A stretch of DNA of 64,000 nucleotides from Rhodospirillales bacterium (lineage in GTDB: Bacteria; Pseudomonadota; Alphaproteobacteria; Rhodospirillales; Casp-alpha2), in assembly GCA_018662225.1 (NCBI GenBank), contig JABJGO010000040.1, forward strand, positions 1 through 64,000, in the 5' to 3' direction. The translations under genes were made by a program, and so were the position numbers. Below the pieces are notes generated by a model. That model was not told where the DNA came from and made no database searches. It worked only from the letters and a program-made list of their open reading frames with translations. Shown one piece after another: positions 7,563 through 59,000 of this stretch. The number at the start of each line of letters is the position of its first letter. The first letter of the stretch is position 1.

Positions 7563-8882
7563 CTATGCCACCGTAACCGCGACGCGGTGCATTGAGTTGT
7601 TGAGATAACCTTTTGGATTCCATGCAATAGCAAATGGCTGCATACGGTTCTTGGTGTCCGTTGCCCGTGCCCAAACCTCATAGTATCCCTTTTCAGGAAA
7701 TTTGATGGTTTGAGTGAAATGCTGCCAAGCATATGGGTTTGCCGGACCTTCAAGATCAGCCTTGATCCAGGTAACACCAAAATCAATCGAAAGATCGATT
7801 GAAGCCACCGCATCATCACCAGCCCATGCGTGTCCGCGGACCTGAACAACATCTTGCCCATCAGGAAGGGCAACACCTGTTTCCGGGAAGGTAATAAGCG
7901 ATTTTACAGGCATGGCCTCGATGATTTCAAAGTCTCCCTTAGGAACCTTTGTTCCGGGGGCAACCGGGTATCCGGGTACGCGATAGGCTTTGCCCGTCAT
8001 TTTAGGACCATCGTGGACCTGATCACGGAGCCAGATACGCTCCAGCCATTTTTGAGAACATGATCCGGGCCAACCAGGAACAACCAAACGTAAAGGAGCG
8101 CCATTCATGGCATGCAACGGTGCGCCATTCATTTCAAACGCGATCAGGTTATTGGGGTTCATGGCCTTGTCGATCGGGACGCCGCGTGAAAGAGATAACT
8201 TCCCTTCTTCACCGGACAGGTGCGAATCTGCACCCACATGTGCGGTGTAAATGACCTCATCTTTGACGCCCGCAGCCTTCAGGACATCTGCGTAACGAAC
8301 GCCAGTCCAGGTTGAACATGCAACGGCACCGTAGGTCCATTGATTACCCTTTGCTGGTGGATCAAAAAAGCCTCGCCCGTTACCGCCGCATTCAATCGTG
8401 AGCTGCTTTGTAACGACTTCGAATTTGCTCTTCAGATCGGCGATAGACAGGGTCATCGGATTGTTCACCAATCCGTCAACAGTCAACGTCCAGTTATTGG
8501 GATCCATGTCTTCGGGTGGAATGCCATTATTGCGCACGAAGTGACGATTAGTCGGCGTGACCCGATCGTCCAACAGGTGTGCGGGTGTTTCGGCATTAAC
8601 CGGGCGGTCGTTAAAAACGGTCAGCCCATCTTTACCTTCAATCATTCCATGAGTATCAGCGAGCGCAACCGGAACAAAACCAGCCGGCATGTTGCGATGG
8701 AATGGAATGGCCGACCCAATCATGGCGCCCATTGTGGCAAGGCCTGCACCTTTAAGGAAGCCGCGGCGATTTTTGTTTGGCGTCCTTCCAAAAATCACCT
8801 TATCGGCGACGTCAGGGTCCTTGTCATAAAGCTCGTAAAGATTAACGGTGCTATCTTCTATCGTTGTGTCATCTTTTGGCAT
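7563..8882 (-). CDS. sorT: Molybdopterin sulfite dehydrogenase (SorT/SorA type), Tat-exported
   Basis: Oxidises sulfite to sulfate in the periplasm. The 439 residues carry a twin-arginine signal within NRRGFLKGAGLATMGAMIG (38-56), an oxidoreductase molybdopterin domain with the probable Mo-ligand Cys165 in IECGGNGR (163-170), and a C-terminal Mo-co dimerisation domain. The partner is a small monohaem cytochrome rather than the dihaem SoxD, and no other sox genes are present, so a Sor-type enzyme is more likely than SoxC. The order sigma, anti-sigma, dehydrogenase, cytochrome matches the Sinorhizobium meliloti rpoE4-sorT-sorU locus as I recall it, where expression responds to sulfite. It is preceded by an ECF-like promoter and an odd tandem-repeat leader. 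Confidence 0.85.
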   Translation of the reverse strand: MPKDDTTIEDSTVNLYELYDKDPDVADKVIFGRTPNKNRRGFLKGAGLATMGAMIGSAIPFHRNMPAGFVPVALADTHGMIEGKDGLTVFNDRPVNAETPAHLLDDRVTPTNRHFVRNNGIPPEDMDPNNWTLTVDGLVNNPMTLSIADLKSKFEVVTKQLTIECGGNGRGFFDPPAKGNQWTYGAVACSTWTGVRYADVLKAAGVKDEVIYTAHVGADSHLSGEEGKLSLSRGVPIDKAMNPNNLIAFEMNGAPLHAMNGAPLRLVVPGWPGSCSQKWLERIWLRDQVHDGPKMTGKAYRVPGYPVAPGTKVPKGDFEIIEAMPVKSLITFPETGVALPDGQDVVQVRGHAWAGDDAVASIDLSIDFGVTWIKADLEGPANPYAWQHFTQTIKFPEKGYYEVWARATDTKNRMQPFAIAWNPKGYLNNSMHRVAVTVA

Positions 8883-10564: not shown

Positions 10565-12040
10565 TCAATGAGACGGCGTCCAGTCGTCGCCCCACATTTC
10601 CTGCCAGAGAAATGGCCGAGTTGAGTTCGACTTAACGCGGCCTCCTTTCCAAAGGTTCCATTTGGGATCTGCGTATAGATCAAAGAACGCATCTATTTTT
10701 CCGCCAAGCTCTTCAACAATGTTTTGATGTACTGCATCATCGGCCAGGTTCGTTCGCTCGCCTGGATCATTCTGCAGATCATACAGTTCACTTGAAAATG
10801 CATAGTTGGACGATGGCACCCGTTTCATGAACAACCACTCAGGCGTTCGTACAGATCGGGTTTCTTCCTGCTCCATATAGACATTCTGGTCCCACTGAAC
10901 CGCTTCGCCCGCCAGAATAGGACGCAAGCTGCGACCCGGAGCATCTTCCCTGGACGGCAAATCCAACCCACAGCAATCCAAAATGGTGGTGAACACGTCG
11001 GTGGTTCCGACCATGGATGAGTCTACCACACCTGATGCCGCACCGTTTGGATCCCTGATGATCAGAGGAATGTTATGGGCTTCGCGGTGTGTGTTTGACG
11101 GCCATGTATCTTCGCCATGCCCCCAAAAACCATGCTGGCCCAAAGACATGCCATGGTCAGCGGTGTAGATGACGATGGTATCATCCGTCAAACCGTTATC
11201 ATCAAGATGTTTCAACACCTTGCCCACGCCCCTGTCGACGATACTCATCTGAGAATAGTAGTTCCGTAATGTAGGCAGATCATTCGGAAGCTGAGCCAAT
11301 GACTGATAATACCCGTCTTCCTCACCCGGTAGTTTGTCGTGCCGCATCAGTATCCAGTCGATCAACTGCTGGCTCACGCCTTCCCTCGGGACCGATGCCA
11401 TGGGCAGGTCGCGGTATCTATCAGCAAAATCATTGTCAGGCTCACCCTTAACCGAAGGCCAGTGACCATAAGGAGCAGGGTATGTGAGATACAGAAAGAA
11501 TGGCGGCGTGTCCGGCCCTTTGTGATCATCGATATAATCCGCCGCCTTGTCGGTGAAGAAATCCACGCTATGTCCGGGCACTGTGAAGCTATTGCCATTA
11601 TCATTGATCTCATTGTCATAGAATGACTGAACATGACCAATGCCCGATGTGACCCAATGAGAGAACCCATTCTGGGCAACATCCGGAAATCCAAGATGAT
11701 ACTTCCCGATGAGCGCCGTATCGTAACCCACACGACCGAGTCGTTCGGGCAACGTGTCAAATTCAGCAATAGCGTTCCAACCCGCAGGCCATGCATCCAT
11801 AGCATCATCATCCAGCCACGTATGAACACCGTGCTGGGATGGCATAAGACCGGTAAGAACCGTCGCCCGACACGGCGAGCACATGGCATTTGGACAATAG
11901 GCCTGATCGAACCGAACGCCCTGTCTGGCCAGATGATCCAGATTAGGTGTGAAAATTTCGGCATTGCCGGAGCACCCCATCATGTCGGCGGGTTGATTGT
12001 CTACGAACACCAAAACGATGTTTGGCTGATCCCGTCGCAT
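10565..12040 (-). CDS. Sulfatase (formylglycine type), cytoplasmic
   Basis: Hydrolyses a sulfate ester; the substrate is unknown. The 491 residues start with the metal-binding strand IVLVFVDNQ (8-16). The C-x-P-x-R signature CSPCRATVLTG starts at Cys54, the residue that must become formylglycine. A second metal motif, DHGMSLGQHGFWGHGEDT, sits near residues 293-310. The first motif reads V-D-N where many sulfatases have D-D. There is no signal peptide, so a small imported sulfate ester is likelier than a polysaccharide. No maturase gene is in the window. It is divergent from the dimethylglycine dehydrogenase-like gene. A link to choline-O-sulfate would be attractive but is unproven. Confidence 0.85.
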   Translation of the reverse strand: MRRDQPNIVLVFVDNQPADMMGCSGNAEIFTPNLDHLARQGVRFDQAYCPNAMCSPCRATVLTGLMPSQHGVHTWLDDDAMDAWPAGWNAIAEFDTLPERLGRVGYDTALIGKYHLGFPDVAQNGFSHWVTSGIGHVQSFYDNEINDNGNSFTVPGHSVDFFTDKAADYIDDHKGPDTPPFFLYLTYPAPYGHWPSVKGEPDNDFADRYRDLPMASVPREGVSQQLIDWILMRHDKLPGEEDGYYQSLAQLPNDLPTLRNYYSQMSIVDRGVGKVLKHLDDNGLTDDTIVIYTADHGMSLGQHGFWGHGEDTWPSNTHREAHNIPLIIRDPNGAASGVVDSSMVGTTDVFTTILDCCGLDLPSREDAPGRSLRPILAGEAVQWDQNVYMEQEETRSVRTPEWLFMKRVPSSNYAFSSELYDLQNDPGERTNLADDAVHQNIVEELGGKIDAFFDLYADPKWNLWKGGRVKSNSTRPFLWQEMWGDDWTPSH

Positions 12041-12219: not shown

Positions 12220-14700
12220 GTGAGCGATACAATATCCAATGAGCCCAATCCATTACCGTCGTCCGCCCGTGTGGTTATTGTGGGTGGGGGTATTATCGGA
12301 ACCTCGGTGGCCTATCATCTGGCCCATATGGGCTGTAAGGATGTGGTGTTGCTGGAACGCGACAGCATCACTTCCGGCACCACATGGCACGCGGCTGGCC
12401 TGATCGTTACATTTGGCAGCCTGTCAGAAACATCCACGGAAATTCGCAAATACGGCCGCGATCTTTATAGCCGGCTGGAGGCCGAAACCGGTCAGGCCAC
12501 CGGGCTTAACCAGTGTGGGTTAATCGAAGTCGCCACCGATGAGGACCGATTGGAGGAATACCGCCGGGTGGCCACCTTCAACCGTTACTGTGGTGTGGAC
12601 GTAGAGGAAATCTCACCTGGGGAGGTCCAGGACCTGTTCCCCATTGCCCGTGTGGATGACGTGCTGGCCGGGTTCTATATAAAGGATGATGGCCGGGTCA
12701 ATCCGGTCGATGTGACCATGGCTCTGGCGAAAGGCGCGCGCCAGCAAGGTGCGCAGATCATCACCGGCGTGTCAGCCACGGGCGTTACCCGCAAAAATGG
12801 ACACGTGACCGGCGTGACCACCGATCAGGGCGATATTGCGTGCGAGTTCGTGGTCAACTGTGCCGGTATGTGGGCCAGACAGTTCGGGGCCGAACACGGC
12901 GTTGTTATCCCCAATCAGGCCGCCGAACATTACTACCTGATCACCGAGTCCATTGATGGCATCAGCTCGGACTGGCCGGTGCTGGAAGACCCATCCCACT
13001 ACGGTTATTACCGCGAGGAAGTTGGCGGGCTGATGATTGGCTTGTTCGAACCGGAAAGTGCAGCCTGGAATGTGGACCGCATTCCGCAGGATTTCTCGTT
13101 TGGTGAGATTGACCCGGACTGGGACCGTATGGGGCCGTTTCTCGAGAAATGCATGAGCCGTGTTCCAATTTCGGTGAATACCGGCATCAAGAAATTCTTT
13201 TGCGGCCCGGAAAGTTTCACACCCGATCTGGCCCCCGTTGTGGGCGAGGCCGCAAACCTTAAAAATTACTTTGTATGCGCCGGTCTGAATTCTATCGGCA
13301 TTTTGTCGGGCGGTGGTCTGGGCCGTATCATGGCTCACTGGATTTTAAATGGAAAACCAGACGTAGATGTCACAGGCTTCAACGCAAACCGCATGCAAGC
13401 CTTTCAGGCCAACCCGGAATATCGCCGTGAGCGGGTCACCGAAATGCTGGGATCCGTCTACAAATGCCACTACCCCACCAAGGCACCTGAGACCGCGCGG
13501 GGCGCAAAACGTTCGGCGTTACATGACCGTCTAGCCGCCGCCGGAGCCTATTTCACCGACGTTAGCGGCTGGGAAGGCGCAAGCTGGTACGCGCCCAGCC
13601 CTGATCTGGCCACGGTCGACAAACTGTCCTTTGGCCGCATGAACTGGTGGCCTTACTGGCAAGCTGAACACAGAGCCTGCCGCGAGGCTGTGACCCTGAC
13701 GGATATGAGCTTTATGGCAAAGTTCATGGTTCAGGGGCGTGATGCAGGGAAGGTGCTCGACTACATTTCGGCCAACAAAGTCAACGGCAATACAGGACAG
13801 ATCACCTACAGCCAGTGGCTCAATGACGAGGGCAGGATCGAAGCCGACCTCACCGTGACCAAGCTGGACGATGATAAATTTATGGTGGTCGTAACCGACA
13901 CCATGCACGGTCATGCCGAATCCTGGATGCGATCAAATATACCTGATGACGCCCATGCTTTTGTCACCGACGTGACCTCGGGCCTGACCCAGATAAACAT
14001 TCAAGGCCCGGGCAGCCGTGACTTGTTACAAGCCCTCACATCGGTTGATTTAAGCCATGAAGCCTTCCCGTTCCGCGCCGCACGCGATATCGATATAGGC
14101 CTCGCCCGCGCCTTGTGCGTGCGGATCACCTATGTGGGTGAATTGGGGTACGAGCTGTATATACCATGCGAGCAGGCCGTTCATGTTTACGACCGTTTGG
14201 TTGCCGAGGGCAAATCTCATGGACTGGTTCATGCCGGTTTAAGTGCGCTGGGTAGTCTTCGTTTGGAAAAGGCCTATCGCGATTATGGTCACGATATCGA
14301 CAATACGGACAATCCATTCGATACAGGGTTGGGTTTTGTTGTATCGCTCGACAAACCTGGTAGTTTCATTGGACAGAAAGCCGCCAAAGCTCAAAAATTG
14401 AAAGCACCCTATACGCGTGGTTTGGTGCAAGTGCTGGTGGGCGATCCGGAACCACTGCTGTGGCACGGCGAGGTAATCTTGCGCGACGGCCAAATGGTTG
14501 GTGACGTAAGGGCCGGCAGTTACGGCCATACGCTGGGCGGTGCTGTCGGTCTTGCCATGATTGAGAGTGGGGAAACGCCGGTCACGGCGGATTACCTGGC
14601 AACAGGCACATGGGAAATTGAGATCGCGGGAAAGCGTTACCCGTGCACCTGCTCTCTGCGGGCCCTGTACGATCCGGAAATGCGGCGTATTCTCAGGTAG
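12220..14700 (+). CDS. FAD-dependent dimethylglycine/sarcosine dehydrogenase-like protein
   Basis: An 826-residue flavoprotein with a C-terminal GcvT-like folate domain, the layout of dimethylglycine and sarcosine dehydrogenases that oxidise N-methyl groups and pass the C1 unit to tetrahydrofolate. The N-terminus shows the FAD dinucleotide loop VVIVGGGIIGTSVAYHLAHM (18-37), then SGTTWHAAG (about 57-65), whose histidine is the covalent flavin site in DMGDH. A middle FAO_M-type section precedes the GcvT part (about 440-820), which includes the late GYELY motif. There is no signal peptide, so it is cytoplasmic. It stops 1 bp from a convergent methyltransferase gene. Substrate assignment is by family only. 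Confidence 0.85.
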   Translation: MSDTISNEPNPLPSSARVVIVGGGIIGTSVAYHLAHMGCKDVVLLERDSITSGTTWHAAGLIVTFGSLSETSTEIRKYGRDLYSRLEAETGQATGLNQCGLIEVATDEDRLEEYRRVATFNRYCGVDVEEISPGEVQDLFPIARVDDVLAGFYIKDDGRVNPVDVTMALAKGARQQGAQIITGVSATGVTRKNGHVTGVTTDQGDIACEFVVNCAGMWARQFGAEHGVVIPNQAAEHYYLITESIDGISSDWPVLEDPSHYGYYREEVGGLMIGLFEPESAAWNVDRIPQDFSFGEIDPDWDRMGPFLEKCMSRVPISVNTGIKKFFCGPESFTPDLAPVVGEAANLKNYFVCAGLNSIGILSGGGLGRIMAHWILNGKPDVDVTGFNANRMQAFQANPEYRRERVTEMLGSVYKCHYPTKAPETARGAKRSALHDRLAAAGAYFTDVSGWEGASWYAPSPDLATVDKLSFGRMNWWPYWQAEHRACREAVTLTDMSFMAKFMVQGRDAGKVLDYISANKVNGNTGQITYSQWLNDEGRIEADLTVTKLDDDKFMVVVTDTMHGHAESWMRSNIPDDAHAFVTDVTSGLTQINIQGPGSRDLLQALTSVDLSHEAFPFRAARDIDIGLARALCVRITYVGELGYELYIPCEQAVHVYDRLVAEGKSHGLVHAGLSALGSLRLEKAYRDYGHDIDNTDNPFDTGLGFVVSLDKPGSFIGQKAAKAQKLKAPYTRGLVQVLVGDPEPLLWHGEVILRDGQMVGDVRAGSYGHTLGGAVGLAMIESGETPVTADYLATGTWEIEIAGKRYPCTCSLRALYDPEMRRILR

Positions 14701-25145: not shown

Positions 25146-26315
25146 ATGAGAAAGGCACCCCCCAGAGGATTCGAGTTATCGGAGTTCGAGCGCCGCATGT
25201 CGCGCGTTCAACGCGTTATGCATGACCGGTCCATCGACGCTATTCTGCTGACCACTGAACCAGATGTGCGCTATTTTTCTGGCTTCCACACCCAGTTCTG
25301 GGAAAGTCCCACACGGCCATGGTTCCTGGTCCTGCCTCGTGAAGGAAAACCCATTGCGGTGATCCCCGGCATTGGCGCGGCGGGTATGCGCGCCACATGG
25401 GTAGATGATATTCGCACCTGGCATTCACCACAGCCGGAAGATGACGGTATCTCCATGCTGGCCGATGCTCTTTCGTCACTGACAACCAAGTCTAACCGTA
25501 TTGGTGTGCCGCTCGGTCACGAAAGCCTGCTGCGAATGCCAGCGGGTGACTATCAAGTATTACGAGATCGTTTATCCGGTATTGAGATCGTCGATGTGGC
25601 CACCGAACTGCATCAGTTGCGGTATGTAAAATCGCCTGCCGAAGTGGCAAAAATCCATCATGTGTGTCAAATCGCATCCGATGCGTTTGAAGCCCTGCCT
25701 CAATCGCTAAAGGCTGGCGAGAGTGAGCGCGAAAATGTGAAACGCTTTCGCATAGACCTATTGAACCGGGGTGCAGACAGCACACCCTATATCGTTGGCG
25801 GTGCCGGACCGGGCGGATACGGCAATATCATCATGGGGCCGGGTGATCGCATCATTGATGAAGGAGACATCCTGATCATTGATACAGGCACCGTCTATGA
25901 CGGCTACTTCTGCGATTTCGATCGTAATTTCGGCTTTGGTCATGTGGCCGATGATGCCATGCGCGCCTACGAGACCGTTTTCAAGTCCACCGATGCGGGG
26001 TTTGAAGCCGCTAAACCGGGCAACACCACAACCGATGTGTGGGCCGCCATGTGGGCGGTGATGGAATCCGGTGGCGCACTAGGCAATGACGTGGGCCGTA
26101 TGGGTCACGGGCTTGGTATGCAGCTAACCGAATGGCCATCCAATACCGAAACAGATATGACGGTATTAGAGCCCGGCGTGGTTTTGACGCTCGAGCCGGG
26201 CATGGAATTCGCCCCCGGTCGACAGATGGTTCACGAAGAAAACATTGTTATCACTGATGATGGTGCCGAGTGGCTCAGCCGACGCGCACCTCAGGAAATG
26301 CCGATCATCGGCTAA
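25146..26315 (+). CDS. M24 family metallopeptidase (Xaa-Pro peptidase/creatinase type)
   Basis: 389 residues. The N-terminal creatinase-like domain is followed by the pita-bread M24 catalytic domain. Metal ligands appear as Asp246 (IIDTG) and Asp257 (FCDFDRNF), His321 in GHGLGMQLTEWP, and glutamates in LTLEPGMEF and VHEENIVI. Relatives cleave N-terminal X-Pro bonds or hydrolyse small amides (creatine, ectoine), so the substrate is open. It heads a co-directional run with an MFS transporter 17 bp downstream, which suggests uptake and processing of one small compound. It lacks the DddP-specific motifs. Confidence 0.85.
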   Translation: MRKAPPRGFELSEFERRMSRVQRVMHDRSIDAILLTTEPDVRYFSGFHTQFWESPTRPWFLVLPREGKPIAVIPGIGAAGMRATWVDDIRTWHSPQPEDDGISMLADALSSLTTKSNRIGVPLGHESLLRMPAGDYQVLRDRLSGIEIVDVATELHQLRYVKSPAEVAKIHHVCQIASDAFEALPQSLKAGESERENVKRFRIDLLNRGADSTPYIVGGAGPGGYGNIIMGPGDRIIDEGDILIIDTGTVYDGYFCDFDRNFGFGHVADDAMRAYETVFKSTDAGFEAAKPGNTTTDVWAAMWAVMESGGALGNDVGRMGHGLGMQLTEWPSNTETDMTVLEPGVVLTLEPGMEFAPGRQMVHEENIVITDDGAEWLSRRAPQEMPIIG

Positions 26316-51949: not shown

Positions 51950-52363
51950 ATGGCAATAAAATTGAACGATTCGACTTCGATCCTGAGCGACCTAAACGTT
52001 CTCGTTGTAGATGATCAGGAGACAATGCGGAAGATTATCCGGCAACTCCTGAAGCAGGCGCAGATAGGGAATTCTTTCGAAGCCGCTAATGGCGAGGAAG
52101 CCCTTAAATTCATTGAAAATATCCACGAACCCAACCCTGATGTGGTCATTTGTGACCTGCACATGGATGGCATGGATGGCATGGAGTTTGTCCACCGTAT
52201 GCGTCGTAAGAAAAATCAGACGCCGATCCTGATCCTGACCGGTGATGAGGACAAGTTCTTGCGTGAAGTTACCGAACAGGCAGGCGCCACACGTATCTTG
52301 ACCAAGCCTATATCGGCAGGTGATCTTGCCAAGGAAATCAGCTCAGCTGTCGGTTTCGGTTAA
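51950..52363 (+). CDS. Single-domain response regulator (CheY-like)
   Basis: 137 residues from the ATG at 51950 (MAIKLNDSTS); a GTG at 51917 would add 11 residues. One receiver domain: acidic pair in LVVDDQETMRK, phosphoryl aspartate in VVICDLHMDGMDG, and the conserved lysine in ILTKPIS. No output domain, so it acts by protein contact or phosphorelay. No histidine kinase is adjacent. Its end overlaps the convergent cupin gene by four bases. Confidence 0.87.
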   Translation: MAIKLNDSTSILSDLNVLVVDDQETMRKIIRQLLKQAQIGNSFEAANGEEALKFIENIHEPNPDVVICDLHMDGMDGMEFVHRMRRKKNQTPILILTGDEDKFLREVTEQAGATRILTKPISAGDLAKEISSAVGFG

Positions 52364-52977
52364 TCCCACACATAGATGCTGGGCAGATCAACGCTGTCGA
52401 TCCAGCAGGCAAAGCTGATAAGTGGCTCATCAGCCGTCTGTATTTCGTGCCGTATGCCCGACGAATGGTAGACCAGATCACCTGATGGCCGATCAAGCCA
52501 GGGCTCAGCTCCCCGTTTCCATTGTGCCTCACCACCCATAACGCCATAAACCTCGCTTTGTTTGTGTGCGTGTGGGGGATACCACGCATGGGGTCCCTGT
52601 ATGGTGATGGCCGTGGTCAGGTCATCAGAAAACCAGCACCCTTCCGGGCCGGTCAGCCGAAGAATGGCATACTTCTCGTTGAAGGCTGCGGCCCGTTTGT
52701 CATCATTGTATGACGCGTACATGCCGAACCAGCGCAACTGGTCGCGCTCTGAATACGCCGCACGGGCCAAGTCCCCCAAGGGGTTATCACCGCATAGTCC
52801 AATACAGGTACCGAAGTACTGATCGGCCATGGGCATGGTTTGAGGTTCTTCTTCCTTAACCGGACCAGACCAATCCACACGATCAACGATCTTGGCATAG
52901 CTACTGGATGATTCATGATCCTGAGCGGCCGCCCATTCACACATGGTTTTCAGGGCGGCGATGGTTTTTGGATACAT
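52360..52977 (-). CDS. DMSP-lyase-like cupin (DddL/DddQ superfamily), copy 1
   Basis: 205 residues. A helical N-terminal half is followed by a cupin whose first motif is WYPPHAHKQSEVYGVMGGEA (132-151; His136, His138, Glu142, Tyr144) and whose second is HSSGIRHEIQT (His171, His177). This is the metal-site pattern of cupin DMSP lyases, which cleave DMSP to dimethylsulfide and acrylate. It is the last gene of the five-gene minus-strand DMSP operon, 11 bp after dmdB. Homology is clear by motif and context; lyase activity is not proven, and it could bind a related sulfonium or betaine. A paralogue lies at 58380. Confidence 0.8.
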   Translation of the reverse strand: MYPKTIAALKTMCEWAAAQDHESSSSYAKIVDRVDWSGPVKEEEPQTMPMADQYFGTCIGLCGDNPLGDLARAAYSERDQLRWFGMYASYNDDKRAAAFNEKYAILRLTGPEGCWFSDDLTTAITIQGPHAWYPPHAHKQSEVYGVMGGEAQWKRGAEPWLDRPSGDLVYHSSGIRHEIQTADEPLISFACWIDSVDLPSIYVWD

Positions 52978-52988
52978 ACTATTCAGCT

Positions 52989-54674
52989 CTATTCATGCAC
53001 TTGGTCATGGGCCTGGTCACGGGCCTGGTCACGGGCCTGGTCACGGACCTGGTCACGCAGGACAAATTTCTGAATCTTGCCCGTTGATGTTTTGGGCAAG
53101 TCGCCAAACACCACACGTTTTGGCCTTTTGAATCCTGCCATGTTGTCTTTACAAAATGCAATGATTTCTTCTTCGGTTGCCGTGGCATCCGGTTTCAATT
53201 CCACAAAGGCACATGGCACTTCGCCCCATTTCTCATCGGGTACGGCAACCACAGCAGCCAAGGCCACTGAAGGGTGTTTATAAAGAACCCCCTCTACTTC
53301 CACAGACGAGATGTTCTCACCACCAGAGATAATCACATCCTTCAGGCGGTCCTTGATCTGAATATATCCATTCGAATGCACCACAGCCAGATCACCAGAA
53401 TGGAACCAGCCATCAGCAAACGCTGTTTCTGTTGCCTCGGGCGCTTTGTAGTAGCCCTTCATGACCGCATTACCCCGGATGAGGATCTCGCCTAAAACCT
53501 TACCGTTGGCCGGTACCGGGTTGGCAGTGCCAACTTCGGCCACAATGATGCCTTCCATCATGGGGAAGCGTACACCTTGCTGAGACTTGATTTCGGCCTG
53601 CTCGTCAAATGGCAAGGCATCCCACTGATCCTGCCAGGCGCAATGGAGCACATGACCATAGGTTTCGGTCAGGCCATACACATGCATGACCTCAAACCCC
53701 AGAGCCTGAACCTGTTCCAGCACGGCCGCAGGCGGTGGTGCACCAGCCGTCATGGCCTTAACCGGATGATCGAATGTCTTCTTTTCCTCGTCCGGTGCGT
53801 TGACCAACATGCCCAAAACAATGGGCGCGCCACCAAAATGGCTGATCTTGTGTTCGACAACCGCATCAAAGACCGCCTTGGCGGTGGTATAGCGACAGCA
53901 AACGATGGTCCCGGTTACCGCCGCCATGGTCCAGGCATGGCCCCAGCCGTTACAATGGAACATGGGAACCGTGTACAGATACGTTGGGTGATTGGGCAAT
54001 CCCCAGCCGACCACGGTGCCCATGGTCATGAGGTACGAGCCACGGTGGTGATAGACCACGCCTTTGGGGCGACCACTGGTGCCAGATGTGTAGTTTAGCG
54101 CCAGCGCCTGCCATTCATCCGTGGGCAAGGTCCACGCGAAGTCTGGCTGGCCTGTATTCAGAAACGCTTCGTAATCCATGCTGCCCAGCCGCTCACCTTC
54201 GCCGTCTTTCAACTGGGCCTGATCATCCACAATATCGATGATGTGAAGATCGCCCCGACCATGCAATTCAAGGGCTGCCTTCATGGTAGGCGAAAACTGG
54301 GTGTCGGTGATCAGCACCTTGGCGTCGCTATGATCCAGAATGTAGGCAATGGTGTCCGCGTCCAAACGCGTGTTCATAGCGTTGAGAACGGCCCCACACA
54401 TGGGAACACCGTAATGGGCTTCAAACAGCTCAGGGGTGTTGGCAGCGATAACGGTAACAGTATCGCCCACGCCAATGCCTAAATTATCCAGTGCACTGGC
54501 CAGACGCACACAGCGGTCATAGGATTCGCGCCAGTTATAGCGGCGGTAGCCATAGATAACGGCAGGATAGTCAGGGAAGACGTCCCGAGCGCGTTGCATG
54601 AAGGACAGTGGCGAAAGGCTCACATAATTGGCTGCATTCTTGTCCAGGCCGCTATCGTACGCATTTGAGGACAT
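52989..54674 (-). CDS. dmdB: Acyl-CoA synthetase, probable methylmercaptopropionate-CoA ligase DmdB
   Basis: 561 residues of the AMP-forming acyl-CoA synthetase family. The ATP loop is NYTSGTSGRPKGV (194-206), then YGLTETYGH, GWFHSGDLAV and IKDRLKDVIISGGENISS. The C-terminal catalytic lysine is Lys533 in KTSTGKIQKF. Lying 35 bp after dmdA, it most likely activates the MMPA released by DmdA to MMPA-CoA, the second step of DMSP demethylation. The last 20 or so residues are a repeated R-D-Q-A tail made by a 12-bp tandem array. dmdC and dmdD are not in the window. Confidence 0.88.
   Translation of the reverse strand: MSSNAYDSGLDKNAANYVSLSPLSFMQRARDVFPDYPAVIYGYRRYNWRESYDRCVRLASALDNLGIGVGDTVTVIAANTPELFEAHYGVPMCGAVLNAMNTRLDADTIAYILDHSDAKVLITDTQFSPTMKAALELHGRGDLHIIDIVDDQAQLKDGEGERLGSMDYEAFLNTGQPDFAWTLPTDEWQALALNYTSGTSGRPKGVVYHHRGSYLMTMGTVVGWGLPNHPTYLYTVPMFHCNGWGHAWTMAAVTGTIVCCRYTTAKAVFDAVVEHKISHFGGAPIVLGMLVNAPDEEKKTFDHPVKAMTAGAPPPAAVLEQVQALGFEVMHVYGLTETYGHVLHCAWQDQWDALPFDEQAEIKSQQGVRFPMMEGIIVAEVGTANPVPANGKVLGEILIRGNAVMKGYYKAPEATETAFADGWFHSGDLAVVHSNGYIQIKDRLKDVIISGGENISSVEVEGVLYKHPSVALAAVVAVPDEKWGEVPCAFVELKPDATATEEEIIAFCKDNMAGFKRPKRVVFGDLPKTSTGKIQKFVLRDQVRDQARDQARDQAHDQVHE
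52999..53058 (-). repeat. Five 12-bp tandem repeats in the dmdB 3' end
   Basis: The unit GCCTGGTCACGG occurs five times without gaps; the three middle copies are identical and the outer two vary. It is read in frame as R-D-Q-A/V repeats at the C-terminus of DmdB, beyond the catalytic lysine, so copy number could change without breaking the enzyme. Confidence 0.9.
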
Positions 54675-54709: not shown

Positions 54710-55825
54710 TCAGATAAAAGGCAGGTCAGATACACTGCCGTCACGCATCGTGCCATCGGGCAAGACGACCTTAACCGCCAAACCCACATCCCAGAAGCCT
54801 TTGTCCATCATGGCAAAGGCAACCGTACTTGCCAAATCGGGTGAATAGGCAGACGACGTGACACCGCCCACGTGCTTACCATTAACCTGTACTGACCATT
54901 CATCTGTTGTGGGTGGTACGGGGCCACCATCGATCTTCAAACCTCGCACAAGGCGACGAGTCCCTTCTGCCATGACTTTGGCCACCGCATCGCGGCCCAG
55001 CGCCTCAATGGGGCGGTCCACATGACAATATCGGTCCAAGCCACATTCCAGCGGATTGTGCGCACGGGTCATATCATTCCCGTAGGACAACAGCCCACCT
55101 TCAATGCGCTCAATATGGTTGGGGCAACCGGGTCTGATCTCAAAAGGCTGGCCCGCTTCCCACAAGGCATCCCACAATTCCAACGCCAGATCTTCACGAT
55201 CCACATAAATTTCAAACCCGCCCTGTTTGCTCCATCCGGACCGGGCGATGACAAAGGGGTGATTGTTGAAGCTCAGGCGCTCAAAGCGGAAAAAACGAAT
55301 ATCACGCACCGACTCGCCAAACACCTGAGCCATCAAATCGTCTGATTTAGGCCCCTGAATAGCCAGCGGCCATACGTCAGGCTCGTGGGTCGCCACATCC
55401 AAACCCAAGCCTGTGGCTAACCCCCGTGCCCACAACAGCACATCAGAGTCCGCCAAAGACAGCCAATAATGATCATCAGCCAGCTTCAAGCCCACCGGAT
55501 CGTTGATCATACCGCCGTCAGTGTCGACCAGTGGTGCGTAGAAGCATTGGCCTTCAATCATGCCGCCAATGTCGCGGACCGTCATCAACTGTACCAGGCG
55601 CGCCGCATCCGGACCCTGTATTGAGACCTGGCGTTCACACCCCACATCCCAGATCTGAACATGTTGTTTCAGATGGGTATAGTCAGCCTCAACGGATTCA
55701 AATACCGTTGCCAACAGCATGTGGTTATAGACGGTGTAGCTTTTAACCCCAGCCGCTTCCACACGTGGCGAAAATGGTGTCCGCCGGGTGCGACGGGACT
55801 GGGAAAGTGTAGCCGGTGCCATCAT
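54710..55825 (-). CDS. dmdA: Dimethylsulfoniopropionate demethylase DmdA
   Basis: Transfers a methyl group from DMSP to tetrahydrofolate, leaving methylmercaptopropionate. 371 residues from the ATG at 55825, which has AAAGG upstream and lies 8 nt after the DUF1326 stop. The GcvT fold matches DmdA closely as I remember it: SRRTRRTPFSPRVEAAGVKS at the start, then CERQVSIQGPDAARL, SGWSKQGGFEIYVD and LLSYGNDMTRAHNPLECGL. DmdA is distinguished from GcvT by such stretches. The adjacent acyl-CoA ligase strengthens the call. Confidence 0.93.
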   Translation of the reverse strand: MMAPATLSQSRRTRRTPFSPRVEAAGVKSYTVYNHMLLATVFESVEADYTHLKQHVQIWDVGCERQVSIQGPDAARLVQLMTVRDIGGMIEGQCFYAPLVDTDGGMINDPVGLKLADDHYWLSLADSDVLLWARGLATGLGLDVATHEPDVWPLAIQGPKSDDLMAQVFGESVRDIRFFRFERLSFNNHPFVIARSGWSKQGGFEIYVDREDLALELWDALWEAGQPFEIRPGCPNHIERIEGGLLSYGNDMTRAHNPLECGLDRYCHVDRPIEALGRDAVAKVMAEGTRRLVRGLKIDGGPVPPTTDEWSVQVNGKHVGGVTSSAYSPDLASTVAFAMMDKGFWDVGLAVKVVLPDGTMRDGSVSDLPFI

Positions 55826-55833
55826 CAGGGCCT

Positions 55834-56445
55834 TTACGGGCCAGACCACTCAAGGCGACAGAACTCGGCGCTGCGGCCACCGAAGTCCCAAACCCGGCCA
55901 AAATCACGGATTTTGGCTGTCGTTGCTTTGGACACGATAATATCAGGCGCAATCCAATACCCTGAATTCTTGATCACCACGGGTTCTTTGCCGTTGGCCC
56001 CCATAACAGGCTCGATCACAGCGTCGATCTTGCGGGGGATATTGAATACGCGTTTGTCACCATTCTTGGCATAAGAAATAGGTACACGTTTGGCGCCCAG
56101 ATACTGACCCACCAACACACGAAGCACGCCAGTGCTGCCACCGGCCTGACCAGTCAGGATTTCTTCGATGGCCTGCGCCTGAAAATCATCAGCGCGTTCG
56201 TCAATGTAAAGAGCCGCTGTCCAGTTACCACGCCCCATGTTGCCGGGAATATCCAGCAAGATACCTGCGTTCAGGCCATCCAGCTTGGTATTGCCAAAAT
56301 AGCCGTCTTCAATCTGGATACCGGCCCAACCCTGACAGTAACCTTCGGTTGGGGGGTGAACACCCAATGACACAACGCAGGGGCAGAAAACTGTGCAGCT
56401 GCAATTGAGGATCAATTCACCGTTTAACGTCCACTTCTTTGCCAT
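55834..56445 (-). CDS. DUF1326 protein with N-terminal cysteine cluster
   Basis: 203 residues. The DUF1326 hallmark is at the N-terminus: Cys15, Cys17, Cys21, Cys23 and Cys37 in LILNCSCTVFCPCVVS and the following EGYCQGW. The arrangement looks like a metal site. There is no signal peptide. The family has no established function that I know of and is often next to DUF2182, as here. It lies 14 bp after the DUF2182 gene and 8 bp before dmdA, so all are surely co-transcribed. A role in handling the metal needed by the cupins, or in DMSP/methylthiol metabolism, is inference. Confidence 0.82.
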   Translation of the reverse strand: MAKKWTLNGELILNCSCTVFCPCVVSLGVHPPTEGYCQGWAGIQIEDGYFGNTKLDGLNAGILLDIPGNMGRGNWTAALYIDERADDFQAQAIEEILTGQAGGSTGVLRVLVGQYLGAKRVPISYAKNGDKRVFNIPRKIDAVIEPVMGANGKEPVVIKNSGYWIAPDIIVSKATTAKIRDFGRVWDFGGRSAEFCRLEWSGP

Positions 56446-56459
56446 CGTTTTTCCTTACT

Positions 56460-57380
56460 TTACGAAATAACCGTGGTGATGAGGCTTAAACCCCACACAA
56501 CAAGTACAACACCAATTACTCGCCCAAAAAATTGACCTTTGGGTAGAATTTTTTCAAATAACATAATAACGCTCAAGATCGCCATCCACACCAGGTTCAT
56601 GGTACCACCCACAAACATGATGGCCATCAACGCCCAGCAACACCCGGCACAATAGAGGCCATGCTGCATGCCCATTCGAACAGCACCAATTTTACCTTCG
56701 CGCCAATGAAGCAGAAAGTATTTCATGGGTGAACGACATTGGCTGAGACAGGCTTCCTTCAAGGCGCTCCATTGATACAGGCCTGCCATGATCAAAACCA
56801 CGCCACCAACAACAGGGGCCACGTCCAGCAATGACGCGGACTGCGCAAATGTGTCACTAATGAGCCATTGAAGCATGGTCACCCCGACACCAAGGCCAAC
56901 CCAAACCAGCAAATACCCACTGGCAAACACGGCCGTGGGGGCACTCGGCATTCCTTTTGTGGCGGCGGCCTGGTTAATATCTGAATAGGCCGCGATCACG
57001 GGGGCTGCCGTCGGTAACATCATGCCAATAGCCATGACCATCCACATGGCCAGCACCAGCGCGGATTGCTCTATGGTCCAGCGTCCGGCGTCCGTGCCAC
57101 TGCTGGCGATCACGGCACGGCAAATTTCGCTCCAGATTGATCCAGGGGGAAAGGCACTATACCCGGCCCAAACGAGAACCTGATCGACCATTTCCATACC
57201 GGGGCCAAGATTGGTGACACCACCATCAACCGCCGCATGATCCATGGCAAATACCCAGACACCGACCCAGGCCATTGCACTGGCCGCAACAATTGCGCCA
57301 TAGACCGTCAGTCGTTCCCACGGAAATACTGGCGCATCAGGCGAAACCGCCGCGTTATCAATTGGTAGTGTGTGCGTCAT
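56460..57380 (-). CDS. DUF2182 integral membrane protein, putative metal-binding
   Basis: 306 residues with about seven membrane helices (about 24-46, 106-130, 150-172, 186-204, 245-262, 264-278, 286-304). Conserved polar features fit DUF2182: MAIGMMLPTAAP in helix 2, CLSQCRSP (Cys211, Cys215), and HGLYCAGCCWALM (His240, Cys244, Cys247, Cys248). The cysteine/histidine pairs in or near the membrane suggest metal or thiol chemistry. It is the first gene of the DMSP operon and is divergent from a LysR regulator. Confidence 0.82.
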   Translation of the reverse strand: MTHTLPIDNAAVSPDAPVFPWERLTVYGAIVAASAMAWVGVWVFAMDHAAVDGGVTNLGPGMEMVDQVLVWAGYSAFPPGSIWSEICRAVIASSGTDAGRWTIEQSALVLAMWMVMAIGMMLPTAAPVIAAYSDINQAAATKGMPSAPTAVFASGYLLVWVGLGVGVTMLQWLISDTFAQSASLLDVAPVVGGVVLIMAGLYQWSALKEACLSQCRSPMKYFLLHWREGKIGAVRMGMQHGLYCAGCCWALMAIMFVGGTMNLVWMAILSVIMLFEKILPKGQFFGRVIGVVLVVWGLSLITTVIS

Positions 57381-57443
57381 TGGCTCGTCAACAGGTCCTC
57401 AAATCGTCCTTCGAGCGCATTTTCTGCCACACCGATGCCCATC

Positions 57444-57475
57444 ACAAGCAATGAATATTGGACATATGGCCTTGT
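57444..57475. promoter_or_regulatory. Candidate LysR operator between the DMSP operon and its divergent regulator
   Basis: The 113-bp divergent spacer contains ACAAG (57444-57448) and CTTGT (57471-57475) as an inverted pair. Between them are CAAT-N4-ATTG and a T-N11-A spacing (TGAATATTGGACA), the loose consensus of LysR sites. AT-rich DNA follows. Weak evidence by itself; the position makes it the obvious control region. Confidence 0.35.
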
Positions 57476-57493
57476 TTTATTTATGGATCAGTT

Positions 57494-58396
57494 ATGAAAC
57501 GCCGATTACCTCCCTTGAACTGGCTCAGATCCTTCGAATCAGCGGCACGATTGCTCAGCTTCACCGCTGCGGGTGAAGAGCTGTATCTGACCCAGGCCGC
57601 CATCAGCCAGCATATCAAATCACTGGAGCAATATCTGGGAACGCCGCTGTTCATCCGCCTGCCACGAAGCCTGCGCCTTACAGATCATGGCAGGGCCTAT
57701 CAGCTACGAATCGAACCTGTTCTTAATCAGCTGGCCGACGACACAGACGAGATATTTGGCCACGACACCAAGAACCAGCTGGTTATTCGGGTTAACGCGG
57801 CATTTTCCGTGCTTTGGCTGGCCCCCCGCATTGGCCGCTTTCTCGCCGCAAACCCCAATATTGATTTGCGGATCACCAACCCCGTGTGGGCGCTGGGTGA
57901 AATGGAAGAAGGCGCGGATTTTGAAATCCAGTACGGTAGTGGCGATTGGCCAGGGATGGACGTAACCCAACTAACCCGGGATACGTTGTTCCCGGTGTGC
58001 CATCCGGATCACGTGTCGCGTACCCATGACGACTTAGCCGCAGAGCTACGCATCCATGTGATCGGTTATCGGGACGGTTGGGCAGACTGGTGCAAGGTTG
58101 CGAATTCAGCAGACCTGGCCATTAACCGCGATATCCAGTGCGATAATTCCATCATGGCTTTCGAGATGGCTGCCAAGGGCATCGGCGTGGCAATTGCGCG
58201 TCACTCGTTGGCAAGCGAGATGTTGGGCAAAGGAGTTCTGGCGCGGCCTTTCGATACGGCGGTGCCGACCAGTCAAAACTTCTATCTCATAAATCCGCTC
58301 AACGTATCCACATCACCGTCGAAAACGGCTTTCCGAGACTGGCTCATCGCTGAGGCAGCAGAATTTCAAGACGGAAGCTCTATCCCCGCACCATAA
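57494..58396 (+). CDS. LysR-family regulator (GcvA-like), probable DMSP cluster regulator
   Basis: 300 residues from the ATG at 57494 (MKRRLPPLNWLRSFE); the frame extends to 57458. The winged helix-turn-helix is LSFTAAGEELYLTQAAISQH followed by IKSLEQYLGTPLF, of the GcvA style. The C-terminal effector domain (about 90-295) is periplasmic-binding-protein-like. It is divergent from the DUF2182-dmdAB operon and convergent with the second cupin, whose stop it overlaps by 17 bp, so it probably controls one or both. The ligand may be DMSP, acrylate or a derivative (inference). Confidence 0.85.
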   Translation: MKRRLPPLNWLRSFESAARLLSFTAAGEELYLTQAAISQHIKSLEQYLGTPLFIRLPRSLRLTDHGRAYQLRIEPVLNQLADDTDEIFGHDTKNQLVIRVNAAFSVLWLAPRIGRFLAANPNIDLRITNPVWALGEMEEGADFEIQYGSGDWPGMDVTQLTRDTLFPVCHPDHVSRTHDDLAAELRIHVIGYRDGWADWCKVANSADLAINRDIQCDNSIMAFEMAAKGIGVAIARHSLASEMLGKGVLARPFDTAVPTSQNFYLINPLNVSTSPSKTAFRDWLIAEAAEFQDGSSIPAP

Positions 58397-59000
58397 CAAG
58401 GGGGCTATCCACATGGGTGGTCCATAACCACACCGTCAACAATGCTGAATGGTTGGTTTGCATGGCGTGGCGAATGCCTGTTTCATGGTGAATCAGTGTG
58501 CCGGATTCCACAGGGAACCATGGGTCTGAGCCAATTTTCCAATCCCCGTCACCACCGATGATCCAGTACGTCTCCACTGCTTGATGAGCATGGGGTGGAT
58601 AGTAGATATCAGGTGCCTGAATACTAAAACCGCCGGCGATTTTGTCTGATACCAGTGGGCCGTTACTGCCGAAGATCGAACAATAGGCAAAACGGTTCTG
58701 GAAAGCCTCGATATCAGGTTCATCCGCGTTGCCTTCGCCCCACAGGTTCCACCTGATCTGATCCTTGGCACCGAGAATGGCTTCACCAATCATGTGGGCG
58801 TTGGACCCGTATTGCCCTGCCGACGTGCACAGGCTTTCAAGGCACTCATCCACAACTGCCGGGCTGCGGGGTTCCGTCGGTTGTAACGCCGACGACCATT
58901 TAACATGTTTTAAGGCAAAGGCCGCAGCCTCACCCGCATCGTCACCATTTAATGCCGCGGATTCGAACAAATCCTTCAAAGCCCCAATTACGCGCTTCAT
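58380..59000 (-). CDS. DMSP-lyase-like cupin (DddL/DddQ superfamily), copy 2
   Basis: 206 residues. Cupin motif 1 is YYPPHAHQAVETYWIIGG (133-150; His137, His139, Glu143, Tyr145). Motif 2 is HHETGIRHAMQT (171-182; His178), then LWTTHVDSP. Metal and catalytic-type residues line up one for one with the cupin at 52360, and the W after GGDGD also matches. It resembles DddQ more than other lyases by eye. It starts 3 nt after the ligA stop on the same strand, so it is attached to a housekeeping operon. The two N-terminal halves differ strongly, arguing against a recent duplication. Confidence 0.8.
   Translation of the reverse strand: MKRVIGALKDLFESAALNGDDAGEAAAFALKHVKWSSALQPTEPRSPAVVDECLESLCTSAGQYGSNAHMIGEAILGAKDQIRWNLWGEGNADEPDIEAFQNRFAYCSIFGSNGPLVSDKIAGGFSIQAPDIYYPPHAHQAVETYWIIGGDGDWKIGSDPWFPVESGTLIHHETGIRHAMQTNHSALLTVWLWTTHVDSPLVMVRG

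Follow-up and report, generated by a model that had tools for sequence, protein, structure and literature searches.

A DMSP Lyase-Like Cupin as the Last Gene of a dmdA Operon in a Rhodospirillales Bacterium

Introduction

Bacteria can turn DMSP, a sulfur compound of algae, into methanethiol or into the climate gas DMS, and most studies of this choice treat the genes for the two routes as separate. The locus described here raises the question of what a DMSP lyase-like cupin does as the last gene of an operon that carries the demethylase gene dmdA. Judging from the gene order, a single gene cluster may serve both of these fates. A recurrent operon ending in a lyase-like cupin would join the two fates, or would give a substrate to an orphan member of the family. 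The likeliest payoff is modest, namely one more lyase; a negative result with DMSP would be more informative, because it would suggest that a dmdA operon encodes some new activity. We analysed the first 64,000 nucleotides of contig JABJGO010000040.1 of a Rhodospirillales bacterium (the window) and compared the locus with those of other genomes.

Results

The dmdA Operon and Its Neighbours

The genes of the locus are as follows.

52360-52977, minus strand: cupin1, a cupin of family PF16867 (DMSP_lyase), 205 amino acids, ATG start
52989-54674, minus strand: acyl-CoA ligase of the PRK08162 subfamily, in the dmdB position (877 bits, cut-off 677)
54710-55849, minus strand: dmdA, DMSP demethylase, true start probably the ATG near 55822
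55834-56445, minus strand: DUF1326 protein (PF07040, 175.6 bits)
56460-57380, minus strand: DUF2182/PpoB2-family membrane protein, possible metal chaperone (PF09948, 216.1 bits)
57381-57493: gap of 113 bp between the divergent DUF2182 and LysR genes, likely a regulatory region
57494-58396, plus strand: LysR-type regulator, GcvA-like (PF03466 and PF00126), in an ORF that opens at 57458, with a likely ATG at 57494
58380-59000, minus strand: cupin2, a PF16867 cupin, 206 amino acids (78.3 bits, cut-off 27)

Five closely spaced genes on the minus strand (DUF2182, DUF1326, dmdA, the acyl-CoA ligase and, last, cupin1) are separated by 14, about 11 (counted from the ATG near 55822), 35 and 11 bp, so that cupin1 starts 11 bp past the ligase stop. 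The LysR gene diverges from this operon across the 113-bp gap; its product scores 270 bits with the GcvA subfamily model, below the cut-off of 288. The cupin2 gene overlaps the LysR gene tail to tail and lies 3 bp after ligA and 5.4 kb from cupin1. The initial annotation had correctly noticed a lyase-like cupin behind a dmdB-like gene, but it gave no strand and overlooked cupin2, the DUF2182/DUF1326 pair and the regulator. With two PF16867 cupins in a recurrent cluster, the observation is somewhat richer than it was at first.

The description of the locus as a demethylation operon holds, as its third gene encodes a DMSP demethylase (565 bits with the NCBIfam equivalog, cut-off 410). The best PDB match of this protein is 3tfh (377 bits), named a GcvT-like aminomethyltransferase in the PDB table, which we take to be the Pelagibacter DmdA. 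According to PMC7487153, a W, an E and a Y of DmdA are tied to DMSP and folate; the stretch SGWSKQGGFEIYV of the window DmdA appears to retain them, with the numbering matched by spacing. The name dmdB, on the other hand, suits the next gene by position and not by model: the ligase scores 323 bits with the curated 3-(methylthio)propionyl-CoA ligase model NF005426 (cut-off 822) and is assigned to PRK08162. A ligase of this type also adjoins DmdA in two more distant genomes (G221 and G229), so it plausibly serves the DMSP pathway, and despite its NF005426 score the window ligase may act on MMPA.

Elsewhere in the window, positions 12220-14700 (plus strand) encode an 826-aa FAD oxidoreductase with GcvT domains that resembles dimethylglycine dehydrogenase. 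A molybdopterin sulfite-dehydrogenase-like protein (7563-8882, minus strand) and a sulfatase (10565-12040, minus strand) score below the curated cut-offs of the named models. The M24 metallopeptidase at 25146-26315 (plus strand) was considered as a DddP and rejected: the solved structures that it matches best are dipeptidases, with no DddP among the matches listed.

Cupin1 Belongs to the DMSP Lyase Superfamily

The product of cupin1 scores 79.3 bits with the PF16867 DMSP_lyase profile (cut-off 27, E 3.5e-22). Of the other 47 genomes searched in its family, three have an orthologue (72, 62 and 56% identity), in each case immediately after the ligase gene. The pN/pS ratios are 0.21-0.38 for cupin1 against its orthologues and 0.24-0.36 for cupin2, in both cases with synonymous sites near saturation, and both genes look to be under purifying selection. 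The PF16867 score, the orthologues behind the same ligase and the pN/pS ratio exclude a chance ORF, and cupin1 is a real gene. Among plasmid records, 189 match cupin1, all at less than 60% identity and mostly from Rhizobium and Sinorhizobium, and 2 match cupin2.

The structure model of cupin1 (pLDDT 92.5) resembles DddQ over nearly the whole chain, with Z scores from 24.8 (4la3; 188 residues, 2.1 A, 19% identity) to 23.4 (5cu1). The best score is 9 above that of DddY (15.8) and 12 above those of other cupins (12.3 or less); DddK gives 12.9. The cupin2 model is likewise DddQ-like (best Z 25.1).

The motif Y-P-P-H-A-H-K-Q-S-E-V-Y of cupin1 supplies Y133, H136, H138, E142 and Y144, and a GIRH motif supplies H177. 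These residues align with Tyr120, His123, His125, Glu129, Tyr131 and His163, listed as essential for DddQ in PMC4437653. All the metal ligands and both tyrosines are kept in cupin1 and cupin2 alike. The Pfam score, the full-length DddQ-type predicted fold and the six residues place cupin1 inside the DMSP lyase superfamily; a position outside it, which the initial annotation would have counted against its proposal, was checked for and is not what we find. That annotation had also matched PPHAH-x3-E-x-Y with GIRH to the cupin DMSP lyases. The pattern is present, but the same six residues occur in 85 of the 96 rows that we compared, most of them proteins of no known function, so the motif cannot identify a DMSP lyase and was dropped as proof of lyase function. 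The site of cupin1 is competent-looking, and its motif marks the superfamily, not lyase activity. Lei et al. 2018 are said to have found that the superfamily includes non-lyases, with cupins of no known function among them.

One residue sets the nearest relatives apart: Gln127 is present in 16/16 rows of the wider clade of cupin1 and cupin2 vs 4/80 of the others. On four MAG contigs we also observed PF16867-like cupins in which YTYGFE replaces YHHEYH, with loss of the metal ligands (L080:958-1554, L082:5331-5927, L083:4519-5115 and L084:7080-7787). Each shares a gene run with an intact relative of cupin2.

Phylogeny and Paralogues

The tree covers 93 proteins of the superfamily, with 3 DddQ fragments as its named lyases (96 rows in total). 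Cupin1 and its three orthologues (100/100) and cupin2 and eight relatives (100/98) form separate clades; a node at 91/82 unites both with two sister proteins and a further one. Another clade (97/93) holds L161 and the three DddQ fragments. In the best tree, whose deep forks are weak, cupin1 is not part of the DddQ clade; a single clade of cupin1 and DddQ is not rejected (p-AU 0.108). A further clade with HPPEEVY-type motifs is presumably DddL-like.

The genome that harbors the window spans 3.5 Mb in 103 contigs and is 95.7% complete. Besides cupin1 and cupin2 it carries two more PF16867 genes, on contigs 3 and 22, which makes four in all. The contig-3 paralogue (L066:4382-4987) groups next to the DddQ clade (98/92) and would be a better candidate than cupin1 for a plain DddQ-type lyase. 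The contig-22 cupin (L067:2329-6135) lies behind a class I methyltransferase gene and faces a DUF2182 gene with two DUF1326 genes. Two of the three DUF2182 genes of the genome, those on contigs 2 and 22, adjoin a PF16867 cupin, an adjacency with a chance of about 4e-4 under even spacing; the copy on contig 55 does not. A copper methanethiol oxidase was considered as the client of the DUF2182/DUF1326 pair and rejected, as the genome has no SBP56. It does have a DmdC-type acyl-CoA dehydrogenase (PF12806), which no NCBIfam model names DmdC. No AcuI was found over the cut-off in this genome (best 101 bits, cut-off 297).

Recurrence of the Cluster

The cluster was sought in 48 genomes of the family, including its own, and in a collection of 84,980 species genomes. 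The collection scan gave 12 loci. Three are the cupin1 orthologues described above, two encode distant Ruegeria proteins, and the remaining seven are of the cupin2 type, including four in MAGs whose titles read Proteobacteria or Lysobacterales. The whole cluster is present in the same order in G225, and split over two contigs in G238. The genome bin.380 has ligA, cupin2, DUF2182, DUF1326, dmdA and the ligase in a row without the LysR gene or cupin1 (L079, on the same contig as G033). Ligase and cupin1 stand at a contig end in SI075_bin47 (G241), and ligA and cupin2 only were found in G084. The sources known so far are all MAGs. In SI075_bin47 a gene for an S15-family hydrolase begins 3 bp past cupin1 on the same strand (L059:1301-3022).

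A search of 297 genomes of the order (E 1e-100 or better) found 13 DmdA loci. Cupin2 and the DUF pair adjoin DmdA in three of them (G000, G225 and G033), which are close relatives; the searches at the other ten found no cupin and no DUF pair next to DmdA. The DUF pair therefore accompanies DmdA in 3/3 loci with cupin2 and 0/10 without it. Among the titles listed in a limited literature search on the cupin family, dmdA neighbourhoods and MMPA lyase, none names this cluster.

Neighbourhoods of Related Cupins

The sister cupins were surveyed in 16 genomes of one alphaproteobacterial family, where nine orthologues of at least 42% identity were counted. Genes for OYE-family flavoproteins lie at eight of these nine loci and MttB methyltransferase genes at five, with a corrinoid protein at three; the families at L104 and L108 were confirmed by Pfam. 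In 22 control regions of the same family, OYE genes occur in 2 and any demethylase-type gene in 7. Three weaker rows (G689, G458 and G683, the last of them at a contig end) had been dropped from the survey, and none had such a gene; with them included, any such gene is found at 9/12 loci vs 7/22 controls (p 0.02) and OYE at 8/12 vs 2/22 (p 0.0009), p-values that overstate the association because the orthologues share descent. Three of the four gammaproteobacterial-type cupin2 genes also follow an OYE-type gene. For the two flavoproteins tested, the leading matches are dienoyl-CoA and enoate-type reductases, followed by histamine or trimethylamine dehydrogenases. Enoate reduction or methylamine oxidation would fit a cupin that eliminates an amine or a sulfide and leaves an enoate.

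The broader proposal that lyase-like cupins accompany demethylases in general was rejected: a DmdA- or DMGDH-type gene was present at 2 of 39 previously unseen loci (L134, on the same contig as L079, and L143) and at 0 of 41 controls (Fisher p 0.23). Since the pattern fails across the superfamily, and the families were chosen after some loci had been viewed, the survey gives a hint for the nearest clade only. Among other loci, two tandem PF16867 cupin domains stand just before a dimethylglycine-dehydrogenase-like gene in G631 (L112:3804-7454), the first closing a 978-aa open frame, part of which is probably non-coding. The surveyed alphaproteobacterial family also has cupins of another PF16867 clade (L224, L228, L230 and L231), which lie near divergent MttB and OYE-type genes.

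Discussion

The Proposed Activity of Cupin1

Our preferred reading, held tentatively and at somewhat less than an even chance, is that cupin1 is an active metal-dependent beta-elimination enzyme. DMSP would be its likeliest substrate because cupin1 is the last gene of a dmdA operon. In DddK, according to PMC10686828, the substrate is bound by the metal and loses its alpha proton to a tyrosine, with breakage of the beta C-S bond. In cupin1 the metal would be held by H136, H138, E142 and H177; by analogy with DddK (PMC10686828), Y144 would remove the alpha proton, with help from Y133, and the beta C-S bond of DMSP would break to give DMS and acrylate. Both MMPA and acrylate may be substrates of the adjacent acyl-CoA ligase, and cupin2 would be another enzyme or partner of this type. 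A source of the metal may be the DUF2182/DUF1326 pair, and the operon may be under the control of the divergent LysR.

DMSP cleavage is favored by the PF16867 membership, the DddQ-like fold, the six residues and the recurrent place in a dmdA operon. Two precedents come from published work: of 26 roseobacters with dmdA, all but two have acuI behind it (PMC3338564), a case of a cleavage-branch gene in a dmdA operon, and a divergent LysR controls dddW of R. pomeroyi (PMC4437653). Against it stand the occurrence of the same residues in 85/96 rows, the place of cupin1 outside the DddQ clade in the best tree, the ten of 13 DmdA loci of the order without such a cupin, and the presence in the family of enzymes of no known function (Lei et al. 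2018). The lack of an AcuI over the cut-off also leaves the disposal of acrylate without explanation. The initial interpretation finds partial support: the membership of cupin1 in the superfamily is established, and its action as a lyase is a proposal.

Other Possible Activities

Next in rank, though in our view unlikely, comes an active cupin1 whose true substrate is another methylated onium compound, for example beta-alanine betaine split to trimethylamine and acrylate; the adjacency to dmdA would then reflect a wider onium-degradation module. The OYE genes at 8/9 and MttB genes at 5/9 sister-cupin loci (OYE in 2/22 controls) and the OYE-type gene before 3/4 gammaproteobacterial cupin2 genes point this way, and Gln127 (16/16 clade rows vs 4/80 others) hints at an altered site. 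However, the three dropped rows lack such a gene, 7/22 controls have a demethylase-type gene, the association fails for the superfamily (2/39 unseen loci), and the demethylase of the window cluster itself is a DMSP demethylase. We consider it improbable that cupin1 is no enzyme and instead binds a pathway compound, or acts as a regulatory or structural partner of cupin2 in a two-cupin complex. Two PF16867 cupins do share one cluster in G000, G225 and G238, and four proteobacterial loci pair a cupin2 relative with a cupin lacking the metal ligands; yet both window cupins retain every metal ligand and both tyrosines, cupin1 appears to be under purifying selection, and cupin2 occurs without cupin1 in some genomes.

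It is very doubtful that cupin1 splits MMPA, the product of DmdA, into methanethiol and acrylate without CoA. Cupin1 closes an operon whose DmdA makes MMPA, such a demethiolation has been proposed and not formally precluded (PMC3338564), and elimination is typical chemistry for known lyases of this fold (PMC10686828). Nevertheless, a thiolate is a poorer leaving group than dimethyl sulfide, the operon ligase and the DmdC-type dehydrogenase of the genome suggest the CoA route, and no AcuI over the cut-off was found there. The boldest idea, and the one to which we give the least credence, is that cupin1 is the missing CoA-independent MMPA demethiolase while cupin2 cleaves DMSP, so that one cluster would set the split between methanethiol and DMS. 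Among all these readings, DMSP cleavage by cupin1 stays the most likely, and a small share of the probability is given to none of them.

Comparison with Known Systems

PpoB2 of Marinomonas passes copper to a tyrosinase (PMC2855505). It is of the same Pfam family as the DUF2182 protein of the operon, although the present operon has no tyrosinase. The roseobacter dmdA-acuI operon, as reported in PMC3338564, resembles the cluster in that a cleavage-branch gene follows dmdA; that gene encodes a reductase there and a lyase-like cupin here, where no AcuI was found. Cupin1 shares its superfamily and residues with the DMSP lyase-like cupins of no known function (Lei et al. 2018). DddK and DddY are likewise cupin barrels with a metal and tyrosine site of this type, but their structural match is weaker, DddK being short and DddY twice the length. 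DddQ (4la2, 4la3, 5jsp, 4b29 and 5cu1) is matched by cupin1 in fold over the full length (Z 23.4-24.8) and in each of the six essential residues. It differs in its sequence (18-21% identity in the structural alignment), in its separate clade in the best tree and in the Trp or Met that the DddQ fragments have at Gln127 of cupin1, and cupin1, unlike DddQ, sits in a dmdA operon.
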